From positions 1,240,001-1,304,000 of the forward strand of contig CP079215.1 of the NCBI GenBank assembly GCA_019316985.1: 64,000 bases of DNA, read 5' to 3'. Under the pieces are notes generated by a model that saw nothing but the letters and a program-made list of their open reading frames with translations, ran no database searches and was not told where the DNA came from. Position numbers and translations under genes: made by a program. Below, piece after piece: positions 32,548-36,615 of the stretch. Source of the stretch: Paraniabella defluvii (GTDB lineage: Bacteria; Bacteroidota; Bacteroidia; Chitinophagales; Chitinophagaceae). Each line of letters starts with the position of its first letter. The stretch's first letter is position 1.

Positions 32548-34660
32548 ATGTACAGCAAAGAAAATACAATAGCCTTGCAGGAAAATACGCAGGCGCTCTT
32601 AAAAGAAAATCCTGAAACGCTTGCATCTCAGGAAAGTACAGAACTGCTGCGCCAGGCATTGCGTTTTCACGAATACCGTTATTATGTTTTAAGCGACCCG
32701 TTGATAGCCGACGGAGAATACGACCAGCTATTTAAATTACTGGAAAGAACAGAACAGGCTCATAAAGACTGGATCACCAAAGACTCCCCACACAAAGAGT
32801 AGCTAAAGAACTAACCGGCAACTTTGTAACGGTACCGCACCTGGTTCCAATGCTGTCACTGGATAACTCTTACAACGAAGCAGACCTGAAAGACTTTGAC
32901 CGCAAAGCCAGGCAATTGTCTAAGCTGGACATAATTACTTATTGCGTTGAACCAAAATTTGATGGCGGAAGCATCTCGCTTATTTATGAAAACGATTTAC
33001 TGGCACGCGGCGCCACACGCGGCAATGGCGTAGCAGGAGATGATGTAACCATCAATATAAAGCAAATACGCACTTTACCTCTTTCAGCGCGCTTCAGCAA
33101 TTATGGATTGCAACAGGTAGAAATACGCGGCGAAGTGCTGATGAATAAAAACAGCTTTAAAAAATATAATGATGCCCTGGTGGAAAAAGGCCTGGCGCCT
33201 TTGGCCAATCCACGTAACGCCGCAGCCGGTACACTTCGGATAAAAGATCCGGCAGAAGTAAGAAGGAGAAGCCTCGAAGCTTTTGTTTACCATATCAGCG
33301 ATTATACACTGCTCCCGGGAAAAGAAGTGCCTGAAGAGCTGACAACACATGCCGGCTCTTTAAAGCTCTTGTGGGACCTGGGCTTCAGAAGCCCGGTTAA
33401 AGAAATGCGTGTATTTGATGGCATAGATGCGGTAATACAGTATTGCCTCGAATTTGAAGAGAAAAGAGACGACCTGCCTTATGAAATTGACGGTATGGTG
33501 ATCAAAGTAAACAATTTTGATTTACAGGACCGGTTGGGCATGACCTCACATCACCCCGCTGGGCCATGGCATTTAAGTTTAAAGCAAGGCAGGGTACCAG
33601 CAAACTACTCAATGTAGATTTCCAGGTAGGCCGCACAGGTTCTATCACTCCTGTTGCCAAAATTGAGCCTGTTTATATCGGGGCGTTACGGTAAGCTCTA
33701 TTTCTTTATTTAATGAAGATGTGATCCGCGAGAAAGACCTCATGATTGGCGATACCGTATTGGTAGAAAGAGCCGGCGATGTTATTCCGTATATCGTTAA
33801 ACCATTGGCGGAGCTACGCACCGGAACGGAAACTAAAATAGAATTTCCGGAGGAATGCCCTGTTTGTTCCAGCAGGCTGTTTAAGGAAGAAGGTGAAGCT
33901 GCCTGGCGTTGCGTAAATATTGAATGCCCGGCACAGGTGGTAGAACGTATGATACATTATGTAAGCAAAGACGCGCTGGATATAAAAGGATTCGGAGAAG
34001 CTAACATTAAAAAGTTTTATGACCTGGGTTTATTAAAAGACATCCCGGGTATTTACAAGCTGGACTTTGAAGCCATTAGCAAGCTGGAAGGGTTTGGCGC
34101 CAAATCGATCGAGAAGCTTAAAGAAGCCATACAGCAAAGTAAACAACAGCCCCTGCACAGGCTGATCTTTGCCCTGGGAATCAGGTTTGTAGGTGAAACC
34201 ACTGCCAAAGTTCTGGCTCAGAAGGTTCATCACTTACTCGATCTTAAAAAATTCTCTCAGGAAGAACTACAGACGCTGGAAGATATCGGTCCGAAAGTAG
34301 CGGGCAGCATTGTTCACTTTTTTAGCAGTGAAGACAATATTAAAATGCTGCAGGAGCTGGAAAATGAGCTTGGCATTACGATGACCAATAACAGTAAGCA
34401 AATGCACGGCGGAGGAGAGCTGGACGGCGTAACATTTCTTTTACCGGAACACTTCCCACACTTAAAAGAAGCGAGGCCGAAGAAATGGCAGAAGCGAGAG
34501 GAGGAAAAATACTAAGCGGCGTAAGTGCAAAGCTCAATTACCTGGTAGTAGGTGAAGACGCAGGCAGCAAGCTTGATAAAGCCAAAAACTAAATACCGTA
34601 AAAATTATCAGCGAAGGCGAGTTTTTAAAGATGATCGCTACCGAAAGCACCGGTTTGTAA
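32548..34660 (+). CDS. ligA: NAD+-dependent DNA ligase, frameshifted
   Basis: Seals nicks in replication and repair. N-terminal Ia domain ([29 protein letters not shown]), [14 protein letters not shown], the adenylation motif [11 protein letters not shown] with the catalytic Lys, [13 protein letters not shown], the OB domain, four zinc cysteines in CPVCSSRLF...[11 protein letters not shown], helix-hairpin-helix repeats and a C-terminal BRCT domain ([38 protein letters not shown]). Frame breaks near 32797, 33555, 33690, 34445, 34460 and 34590. About 704 residues. Essential, so the breaks must be errors. Confidence 0.93.
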
Positions 34661-34684: not shown

Positions 34685-35137
34685 TTACGCTTCTCGAAAA
34701 CTTTCCTCCAGCGATATAAAGGTTTCGGTTCGCTCAATACCTTTTATCTTCTGCAGTTTTTCGTGCAATACATCTCTTAACTCAGATATATCCTTACAAA
34801 CAATTTCAGCAAACATGCTGTAATTTCCTGTTGTATAATTCAGGCGTACAATTTCTTTTATTTTATGCAGCTCTTTGGCAACCGAATCGTATAAGGAGCT
34901 TTCCCGCAGGTAAATACCAATAAACGCAATTACATCGTATCCTAAAAGCTTCAGGTCGGGGTTAAGGCGGGTTCCTTTCACAACACCGTCCTTCTGCAGC
35001 TTCTTAATACGCACATGTATAGTACCGCCGGATACAAATAATTTCTTTCCCAGGTCGGCATACGATATCTCGGCATCATCCATCATGTGCTCAATGATCT
35101 GCAGATCCAGCTTATCAAGATTTAATTTAGAATTCAT
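34685..35137 (-). CDS. Lrp/AsnC-family transcriptional regulator
   Basis: Intact, 150 residues. The N-terminal winged helix (LDLQIIEHMMDDAEISYADLG, VSGGTIHVRIKKLQKDGVVK) binds DNA; the C-terminal RAM domain (YDVIAFIGIYLRESSLYDSV, VRLNYTTGNYSMFAEIVCK) binds a small effector, usually an amino acid. The palindrome TTGATAT-N6-ATATCAA lies 17-37 bases before its start, a likely autoregulatory site. Divergent from a short RNA unit at 35263. Confidence 0.92.
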   Translation of the reverse strand: MNSKLNLDKLDLQIIEHMMDDAEISYADLGKKLFVSGGTIHVRIKKLQKDGVVKGTRLNPDLKLLGYDVIAFIGIYLRESSLYDSVAKELHKIKEIVRLNYTTGNYSMFAEIVCKDISELRDVLHEKLQKIKGIERTETFISLEESFREA

Positions 35138-35154
35138 ATTTAAGCAGCTTTAAT

Positions 35155-35174
35155 TTGATATAATCTAATATCAA
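35155..35174. promoter_or_regulatory. Palindrome upstream of the Lrp-type gene
   Basis: TTGATAT, AATCTA, ATATCAA: perfect 7-base arms in AT-rich DNA before the Lrp start codon. A related inverted repeat (ATTATATCA / TGATATAAT) is at 37721-37758. Confidence 0.5.
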
Positions 35175-35224
35175 TTGCAATTTATTGAATAATTACTATA
35201 TTTTAAAAAATATTCTTAAAATAT

Positions 35225-35256
35225 TTGGAACGAACGACCATTTATCTTTATTTTTG
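35225..35256 (+). promoter_or_regulatory. Promoter of the tRNA-like RNA unit
   Basis: TTG at 35225-35227 and TATTTTTG at 35249-35256, 21 bases apart, match the Bacteroidota consensus; transcription would begin near 35263 with no protein-coding frame below it. Confidence 0.6.
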
Positions 35257-35297
35257 TTCTAACAAAGCCTGATAATACAGGCAAAGTTCTTAAAAAT

Positions 35298-35457
35298 TGT
35301 GGGGTGATGAAACTTTTGGCAGACATGCCCTCTTGTCTCGAGGGTGAGGATCACGGGATAAACACAACATAGAGCCGACCGTCAGGCCGACCAGGATTGA
35401 CCACTAACTTTGTGTTGCGGCTAACCGCCTCGTGGAGGTTCGACCCCTCCCCTACAG
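35298..35457 (+). ncRNA. tRNA-Leu-like RNA with a large structured insertion in the variable arm
   Basis: Acceptor-like 35298-35304 pairs with 35450-35456. D-stem ATG/CAT (35307-35309, 35324-35326) encloses a class II Leu-type D-loop with GG and AGA. A perfect anticodon-like stem CCCTC/GAGGG (35328-35332, 35340-35344) holds loop TTGTCTC. A T-arm GGAGG-TTCGACC-CCTCC is at 35434-35450. Between the last two lies about 85 bases: CACG (35352) pairs with CGTG (35431), AACACAA (35361) with TTGTGTT (35410), and GCGG-CTAA-CCGC forms a hairpin at 35417. No CCA is encoded and the loop gives no Leu anticodon. One or two lost bases may blur the acceptor. It could be a modified tRNA, a pseudo-tRNA or a new RNA class. 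Confidence 0.5.
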
Positions 35458-35465
35458 CATTATTA

Positions 35466-35493
35466 AACCTTCGCTCCCGGCGGAGGTTTTTTT
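35466..35493 (+). terminator. Terminator of the tRNA-like RNA unit
   Basis: AACCTTCGC, loop TCCCG, GCGGAGGTT (one G-U), then TTTTT; 9-bp stem. It closes a transcript of about 230 bases starting at the promoter at 35225-35256. Confidence 0.8.
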
Positions 35494-35659
35494 GTCAACT
35501 TTCTGAGGATGAAGATGCTGCCGGCATCTTTGTTCATAAAGCGTTCAATTTGGCTTAGCTGTAATAGTCGCTGTATTTTTGCTTATCCCCTGCACCTTAT
35601 TACACCACAGTAGCCAAATATAAAATTAATTTCCTACAAACCTTTAAGCATTAGATACT

Positions 35660-35686: not shown

Positions 35687-36615
35687 ATGAAAAAGATACT
35701 ATTTGTAGTTGCTTTCTTGAGCAGCTTAACCGTACTGGCTCAGGATGAAACAGTTAAAAATTTAAAAAAGGATTCTGAAAGGCAAATAAAGAAGGACCCG
35801 AATGACACTACTGCTAAAGTATGGAAAACAGGAGGATTTGTAGGATTGAATGCCGCGCAGGGTTCATTGAGTAACTGGGCCGCCGGGGTGATAAATTCTC
35901 CTGGCTATAAACGGAAACCTTAGCACCTACGCTTTTTATAAGAAAAACAAACACTCCTGGGATAATACACTCGATCTTAACATTGGCTACATAAATACCA
36001 CCTCGCTTGGAAGCAGGAAGAACGACGACCGTATCGACCTGGTATCAAAATACGGATATGCAATAGGTGAAAAAATGGAACGTAGGCGCATTGTTCAACT
36101 TCAGATCGCAGCTATTTAAAGGGTATACCTATGACAATGACGGCAACCGGACGTTTAGCTCTAACTTCCTGTCTCCGGCATATGTGCTCCTCAGCCCGGG
36201 CCTTGAGTGGAAACCCAATAAAGAGTTCTCTGCATTTATGTCTCCCGCTACGGTAAGATGGACGATAGTAAAAAATGACTCCCTTTCATCTGTTGGTGCT
36301 TACGGAGTAGATCCCGGCAGGCACTCCAAAACCGAATTTGGGGCTTTTGCTTCGCTGAATTATTTCAAAGAGATCAATAAAATGTTCTCCTACAAGAGCC
36401 GGCTGGATTTGTACTCCAACTACCTGGAAAAGCCTAAGAACGTAGATCTGTACTGGACCAATCTTATCAATATGAAGCTCACTAAATATCTTACGCTTAC
36501 TTACAGCCTGGATATGATATATGACGATGACGTCAGATTGTTTGGCGCGAACAATGAATCACCTGCCGCACAAATAAAATCGATGCTCGGTTTGGGCTTT
36601 CTGGTAAAATTCTAG
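35687..36615 (+). CDS. DUF3078 family outer-membrane protein, frameshifted
   Basis: Signal peptide MKKILFVVAFLSSLTVLAQ. Then WKTGGFVGLNAAQGSLSNWA, the typical opening of DUF3078 proteins, followed by beta-strand-rich sequence (TYAFYKKNKHSWDNTLDLNI, YIYFKEINKMFSYKSRLDLY type) and a final strand SMLGLGFLVKF with an aromatic end. Frame breaks near 35905 and 36075. About 311 residues. Predicted barrel of unknown function. Its TAG stop shares three bases with the stop of the converging glycosyltransferase. Confidence 0.75.

Follow-up and report, generated by a model that had tools for sequence, protein, structure and literature searches.

A conserved class II tRNA-like RNA with an aspartate anticodon, encoded beside an AsnC-type regulator gene in Bacteroidota

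The window analysed here, a stretch of 64,000 nucleotides from Paraniabella defluvii (contig CP079215.1, positions 1,240,001 to 1,304,000), belongs to an assembly composed of a single 6.13-Mb contig whose completeness is low (72%). Positions 35297-35458 of the window form a complete class II cloverleaf fold, divergent from an AsnC/Lrp-type regulator gene. The initial annotation had seen no coding frame at this place, and the open reading frames overlapping the unit indeed all have 53 aa or fewer, so that a protein-coding reading was rejected. The adjacent AsnC-type gene did not figure in that description of the locus. The features are as follows.

34685-35137, minus strand: AsnC/Lrp-type regulator gene, divergent from the RNA (Pfam, PDB, synteny)
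35216-35227, plus strand: conserved upstream element TTAAAATATTTG, of the TTGAAWWATTTG type, including the -33 TTTG
35249-35256, plus strand: -7 element TATTTTTG (sequence)
35286-35292, plus strand: boxA-like GTTCTTA, similar to AAGTTCTTTGAAA in the 16S rRNA leaders of the same genome
35297-35458, plus strand: tRNA-like RNA unit (N-1, acceptor, D-arm, anticodon arm, long variable arm, T-arm, G73, C74)
35298-35304, plus strand: 5' side of the acceptor stem, TGTGGGG (covariation)
35307-35326, plus strand: D-arm with 3-bp stem ATG/CAT and A14; G18 G19 at 35318-35319
35328-35344, plus strand: anticodon arm CCCTC-TTGTCTC-GAGGG; G34 U35 C36 at 35335-35337, C38 at 35339
35345-35433, plus strand: variable region, 89 nt
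35346-35349, plus strand: base stem of the variable arm, GAGG, paired with CCTC at 35428-35431
35355-35362, plus strand: GG and internal-loop motif GATAAA; the GG pairs with CC at 35425-35426, the motif faces CTAA at 35421-35424
35365-35371, plus strand: 7-bp distal helix CAACATA, paired with TGTGTTG at 35411-35417, with a conserved U-G
35394-35404, plus strand: apical motif GGATTGACCAC (GGRTNGACCAC), a 9-nt loop with a G-C closing pair
35434-35450, plus strand: T-arm GGAGG-TTCGACC-CCTCC with a 5-bp stem (covariation, T-loop counts)
35451-35458, plus strand: 3' side of the acceptor, CCTACA, then G73 and C74
35465-35493, plus strand: intrinsic terminator, an 11-bp hairpin (two G-U pairs) and a T run behind it

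The flanking genes at 32548-34515 and 35687-36615 are each broken into several ORFs. The former resembles a DNA ligase by eye and the latter is without a Pfam match; loci of the same genus have longer unbroken ORFs for the latter, which, with the completeness of 72%, makes sequencing errors likely in these split genes. Within the RNA unit, the 3' strand of the acceptor (35446-35456) is one C shorter than in most relatives, a state shared with two other loci (L002 and L005) among 107 rows; the missing base is probably a homopolymer sequencing error.

A blastn search (E ≤0.01) matched the RNA in 56 of 99 genomes, its own included, and the better matches span the long insertion. Across 28 aligned relatives, 99.4% of the 782 structure cells are paired and 13 of the 28 pairs have changed on both sides. 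On each of five measures all 500 shuffles stayed below the real alignment, and slid controls were all far lower. The initial annotation had proposed such a covariation check together with a comparison with Rfam, and neither speaks against a new family: no curated Rfam 15 family matches in the window (best sub-threshold score 15.6 bits, cut-off 49.5). The single-sequence fold is just moderately better than that of shuffles (z -2.49), so that the case rests on the comparison of relatives. Among these, D-stem pairs exchange A-U, U-A and G-C at one position and U-A and C-G at another, and in the acceptor U1 and G2 occur in 250/251 and 251/251 distinct bacterial units, respectively, among the matches listed. 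The acceptor stem has 7 bp, or 8 bp if the preceding base N-1 pairs with G73, as it often could. The D-arm, anticodon arm and T-arm with TTCGACC are all present as originally described, and the acceptor, D, anticodon and T arms are accompanied by U8, A14, G18G19 and UUC; U8 and A14 are found in 103/103 and the A15-U48 pair in 100/103 distinct units. Counts over 103 distinct units derive solely from 107 rows found by blastn and the model described below. A larger set, 303 rows after removal of one cut unit, gave 280 distinct units, of which one could not be parsed and was dropped; the resulting 279 (251 bacterial and 28 viral) include units found with a sequence pattern, the genome pattern loci being those among the matches listed. 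As this pattern, used for genomes and viruses, required GTC and C38, loop counts in the pattern-found sets are conditioned on it.

The covariance model (R1), trained on 28 aligned units with the window excluded, scores the window RNA at 130.4 bits. The next match in the genome, on which ARAGORN is undecided, reaches 44.0 bits, and is followed by tRNA-Leu (40.1 and 37.0 bits) and tRNA-Ser (27.8 bits), all of them class II; the earlier likening of the fold to tRNA-Leu was fair in this sense. A scan of 395 Bacteroidota genomes, run with stricter filters through which weak matches may be lost, separated members (at least 93.9 bits) from the remainder (at most 64.1 bits) by an empty gap among the matches listed. 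General tRNA models do not recognise the unit: RF00005, which finds 46 tRNAs genome-wide, has no match to it in the window at the gathering threshold and none within 35150-35560 at E ≤10, and ARAGORN calls neither a tRNA nor a tmRNA at the window unit, nor any tRNA in 109 member loci. Searches of open-licence PMC literature gave no description of this RNA among the titles and abstract openings listed. The locus apparently encodes a conserved tRNA-like RNA family of Bacteroidota that is so far without a name.

The variable region ranges from 39 to 131 nt in the measured units found by blastn or the model and has 89 nt in the window, slightly more than the 85 or so initially given for the insertion in the variable arm; whole units measure about 110 to 210 nt, depending on the species. 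Its 4-bp base stem, nearest the body, covaries (GAGG/CCTC, GAAG/CTTC, GGAG/CTCC, GGGG/CCCC), and the following 2-bp stem, which exchanges G-C, A-U and C-G, is 100% paired across 28 rows. The internal-loop motif GATAAA/CTAA is strongly conserved in these rows and lost in some other units. For the 7-bp distal helix, held in a fixed register over 66 diverse long forms, 89.6% of cells are paired versus 71.5% with shuffled partners (maximum 75.5%), and its U-G pair is nearly invariant in long forms. The apical motif GGRTNGACCAC is present in 66/66 long forms, which were chosen by motif and length, and in 111/251 bacterial and 19/28 viral distinct units among the matches listed. The apical tip is absent from short forms, and several genomes carry a long and a short form next to each other. 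One genome (G165) has a 78-nt member (L339:838-915, minus strand) with a variable loop of class I size and anticodon AUC; this member keeps the 3' end and U35 C36 U37 C38, and ARAGORN calls it tRNA-Asp. Two pairings of the apical loop were considered and set aside. A kissing-loop dimer through GGTTGACC stays an idea, its 8-base palindrome being broken in 8/66 forms and in the window, and base pairs between the apical GAC and the GUC anticodon would number just three, judged by eye.

The anticodon loop TTGTCTC, in which the initial annotation correctly saw no Leu anticodon, contains one that it did not name, GUC, for aspartate. The portion of PMC9976931 used here gives the determinants of bacterial tRNA-Asp as G73, G10, G34, U35, C36 and C38, with G1-C72 and G2-C71 conserved. 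From this set G73, G34, U35, C36 and C38 are kept, whereas G10 (A, G or U) and G1-C72 (U1-A72) are not. U35, C36 and C38 are invariant in 103/103 distinct units and G34 occurs in 100/103, being otherwise C or U; the 3' end CAGC (G73, C74) is found in all 279 parsed distinct units, among the matches listed. U33 and a purine at position 37 are normally fixed by decoding. In the 103 distinct units position 33 is T in 77, C in 16, A in 7 and G in 3, and position 37 is T in 91, C in 8 and G in 4; U33 is thus present in 77/103 units and a purine 37 in 4/103, the window itself having U33 and U37. The strong aspartate determinants are retained except G10, and the drift at positions 33 and 37 suggests that the rules of decoding are relaxed. 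A canonical tRNA-Asp is also present in the same genome. An extra AspRS paralog was rejected as the charging enzyme: none was found to track the RNA, and PF00152 has 2-6 matches per genome, mostly three, with or without the RNA.

The promoter-like layout named in the initial annotation is confirmed by sequence: TTTG (35224-35227) is followed, after 21 bases, by TATTTTTG (35249-35256), which we take to be a -7 element of the Bacteroidota type. This -33/-7 pair occurs upstream of 46/71 linked and 8/14 unlinked first copies (54/85 together), of 0/21 second copies, of 12/60 tRNA controls and of 8/550 random stretches. The TTGAAWWATTTG-type element, scored at no more than 2 mismatches within 150 nt upstream, occurs at 55/71 linked and 9/14 unlinked first copies, at 3/21 second copies, and in 4/60 tRNA and 51/550 random control stretches. 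One of the 107 units was left out of the promoter counts for its short upstream stretch, and the linked set comprises all loci not hand-listed as unlinked, including one row (L046) without the regulator in its stretch. GTTCTTT/A, the presumed boxA-like sequence, lies upstream of 69/198 first, 4/59 second and 0/27 viral copies (284 rows, duplicates and short upstream stretches removed), and is found in 4/60 tRNA controls and 59/3310 random 60-mers. A terminator follows the unit, as had been noted, with a hairpin of 11 bp, two of them G-U, instead of the 9 bp first given.

The absence of the -33/-7 pair from all 21 second copies suggests that these are probably transcribed from the promoter of the first copy and then excised in the manner of tRNAs. 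Tandem arrangements can be extended: five copies follow one another with a period of about 151 bases in L257:311-1053, and three copies with short spacers adjoin the regulator in two loci (L085 and L086) of genomes from another class of the phylum. The promoterless tandem second copies, together with viral copies lying among tRNA genes, suggest processing of the tRNA type. The initial annotation correctly recorded that CCA is absent. This is uninformative, since 23 of 30 ordinary tRNAs of the same genome (taken from the 46 found with the RF00005 model) encode only N73-C74, the canonical tRNA-Asp among them; three encode N73-C-C and four the full CCA.

The regulator gene has its best PDB sequence match in E. 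coli AsnC (111.8 bits), the leucine-responsive protein scoring 46.5. It is divergent from the RNA in 44/48 loci (50 less two dropped for an identical unit, with one genome, G034, counted twice) and in 24/35 further loci. A pattern scan of genomes gave at least 119 stretches, 80 of which are listed by name, Chitinophaga pinensis (L176), Dyadobacter fermentans (L201) and Pedobacter zeae (L224) among them; the regulator is divergent in 81 of these 119 loci, in 80 cases within 700 bases. Wherever found it is never in the other orientation, and some of the remaining stretches end too early to show it. Among the 395 Bacteroidota genomes, 44 have an ortholog of the regulator (at least 149 bits; next matches at most 136.6), and the RNA (at least 90 bits) is found in 40, all within these 44: 40/44 genomes with the ortholog versus 0/351 without (Fisher 1e-50, shared ancestry ignored). 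Within the family the figures are 43/46 with the regulator and 0/14 without, by a Fisher test that likewise ignores shared ancestry. The 11 of 35 loci without an adjacent regulator belong to eight genomes, all of which have the ortholog elsewhere. In both sets the genomes with the RNA are a subset of those with one AsnC-type regulator ortholog, and the two genes mostly lie divergently next to each other. The RNA family and its partnership with the AsnC-type regulator can be taken as practically certain.

Four of the 44 ortholog genomes are without a full-length RNA, one of them having the shrunken version alone, as are 3/46 in the family. In three genomes (G214, G447 and G100; stretches L332, L333 and L334 upstream of the regulator) a promoter-like stretch and a tail similar to that following the RNA in relatives persist by eye, and the unit is gone. 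The shrunken copy of G165 is on another contig than the regulator. In the family, nothing was found in the place of the RNA in G043 and G045, and the regulator of G052 is at a contig end; the unfiltered model, run on the regulator stretches lacking the RNA, found nothing besides the G165 copy. Asparagine synthetases were rejected as co-travellers: AsnA exceeds the cut-off in 1/60 genomes, and AsnB-type matches are present in 53/60, whether or not the genome has the RNA.

The 14 loci listed for unlinked copies showed no gene shared by all. Three genomes from a single family (G089, G254 and G250) have a GH113 gene divergent from an unlinked copy (genes at L036:3-1076, L096:3040-4113 and L101:702-1799). 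Two genomes from a single genus (G089 and G250) have an RF-1-domain gene directly before a long RNA copy and on its strand (L036:3592-4050, plus strand, and L114:3122-3553, minus strand). These neighbours may reflect shared ancestry alone, although the RF-1-domain gene would fit a translation-linked role. In L036:1104-2381, ORFs on both sides of the first RNA copy have repeats at the protein level, which suggests DNA repeats.

The pattern also matched 36 viral contigs, of which the model confirms 34 at 75 bits or more, two units being cut by the contig end. Fourteen of the 36 viral stretches have six or more ARAGORN tRNA or tmRNA calls, and four (L309, L314, L318 and L329) have 16-26 each. A tmRNA is called in three of the 36, L309 and L314 among them, and doubtfully in a fourth, L329; a canonical tRNA-Asp lies beside the RNA in six. 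Among viral copies the apical motif is retained by long forms, most of which also have the internal-loop motif, and both motifs are absent from short forms; ARAGORN labels viral forms of 91-98 nt as tRNA-Asp. No AsnC-type gene was found in the fetched viral stretches. A 636-kb unannotated record of an uncultured phage matches one viral copy over its full length (72.8%). The matches to three Aeromonas phage records cover just 25 bases, one of three queries had no match, and plasmids gave no match to the RNA.

Comparison with known RNAs places the family near several of them. A D-arm of this layout, A14, A15-U48, G18G19 and a long arm are features of tRNA-Leu, and the RNA shares them; it differs in its GUC instead of a Leu anticodon, in G73 instead of A73 (279/279, among the matches listed), and in its variable region of 39-131 nt with an internal-loop motif. 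With tRNA-Asp it shares G34 U35 C36, C38, G73 and G2-C71, whereas the class II arm, U1-A72, A, G or U at position 10, a pyrimidine or G at 37 and the inconstant U33 set it apart. The long arm, G73 and, if N-1 pairs with G73, a 13-bp acceptor branch recall tRNA-Sec (8/5). However, tRNA-Sec has the anticodon UCA and a D-stem of 6 bp, and the D-stem here has 3 bp. As in tmRNA, calls of which also occur in some viral stretches with the RNA, a tRNA-like end belongs to a longer structured RNA, but the anticodon arm is full and covarying and no tag reading frame was called. Allo-tRNAs, as presented in the part of PMC7609411 considered here, are class II RNAs of Clostridia, Proteobacteria and Acidobacteria with G73, an 8/4 or 9/3 acceptor branch and unexpected anticodons, GUC being among the commonest, and occur in polycistrons. 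The class, G73, GUC and polycistrons are common to these and to the present RNA, whose branch is 7/5 or 8/5, the former also totalling 12; section 7 of PMC7609411 does not mention an AsnC partner.

The best reading, which we put forward tentatively, is that of a tRNA that decodes poorly or not at all, would be charged by the ordinary AspRS and would serve an AsnC circuit. Its transcript would be trimmed by tRNA-processing enzymes and provided with CCA. AspRS would then charge it with aspartate, as the invariance of U35, C36, C38 and G73 and the near invariance of G34 suggest. Decoding would be poor or absent, since U33 and purine 37 are not kept. The charged or uncharged state, or else the variable-arm domain, would take part in the response to aspartate and asparagine that the AsnC-type protein governs, and this protein probably regulates the promoter of the RNA as well. 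Confidence in these inferred steps decreases from tRNA-like processing through charging and little or no decoding to a part in the aspartate/asparagine response; the charging step, for which AspRS is the likeliest enzyme, is itself proposed with reserve from sequence features. Several observations count against this reading: G10 and G1-C72 are lost, U33 is still the commonest base (77/103) and N34 is C or U in 3/103; G73 and the long arm suit SerRS as well, and N-1/G73 could give an 8-bp stem; some regulator genomes are without the full RNA, and the fetched viral stretches gave no regulator gene; the promoter pair is found at just 54/85 first copies; and neither an AspRS paralog nor asparagine synthetase genes track the RNA. 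The broader proposal, that a tRNA has been kept outside translation across much of the phylum, aspartylated by AspRS, free of decoding, either read by an AsnC-type regulator or in its service, and acquired by phages along with tRNA sets, is more doubtful.

Retention of GUC (100/103) and U33 (77/103) could instead denote a second, class II isoacceptor of tRNA-Asp that decodes GAC/GAU, perhaps slowly or conditionally. The viral copies fit a translation-linked role and keep this weak decoder alive, given the 14/36 stretches with six or more tRNA or tmRNA calls, the tmRNA in three and doubtfully a fourth, and the 91-98-nt forms that pass for tRNA-Asp with ARAGORN; the translation-related RF-1-domain gene before a copy in two genomes of one genus points the same way. 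Such an isoacceptor is nevertheless unlikely, because U33 and purine 37 are not kept, the genome itself and six viral stretches also have a canonical tRNA-Asp, and being bound to one regulator would be odd for a decoding tRNA. It is equally unlikely that the RNA is an uncharged mimic, a regulatory RNA whose tRNA fold would serve processing and stability and which would act through its variable-arm loop (GGRTNGACCAC) or its anticodon loop, with the AsnC-type protein or mRNAs as examples of targets. The variable-arm domain common to bacterial and viral copies, the constant regulator partnership and the looseness of positions 33 and 37 favour such a mimic, but short forms have no apical motif and one relative has no arm, and the 3' end, U35, C36 and C38 never vary, which suggests that the acceptor and anticodon loop matter rather than the arm.

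A further candidate is a serine-charged allo-tRNA-like RNA that would mistranslate Asp codons or donate serine: G73 and the length of the variable arm are features of SerRS substrates, and the part of PMC7609411 considered places GUC with the most frequent anticodons of allo-tRNAs. This is improbable: C72 is replaced by A72, the acceptor/T stem is 7/5 or 8/5 and not 8/4 or 9/3, one relative lacks the long arm and, since SerRS ignores the anticodon, the constancy of U35, C36 and C38 (103/103) would be left without explanation. The initial annotation also considered a tRNA interrupted by an element, to which a decayed pseudogene may be added. The missing ARAGORN call and the length of the insertion agree with this, but relatives from several families, and viral contigs too, share the insertion with covarying pairs, and the acceptor pairing is kept through double changes; covariation and distribution rule out a pseudogene as well as a tRNA split by mobile or intron-like DNA, for which the likelihood is negligible. 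The other two descriptions first offered, an uncommon tRNA and a tRNA-derived regulatory RNA, may each still apply to the family.

This RNA family is widespread and has seemingly been overlooked so far, probably owing to a variable arm that tRNA-finding programs do not accept (ARAGORN, 0/109 loci). Should it be charged without decoding, it would represent a tRNA that serves as sensor or donor of an amino acid and is tied to one amino-acid regulator across distant Bacteroidota, and what AsnC-type proteins sense in this phylum would become testable. The viral copies give another route to the function of the RNA.
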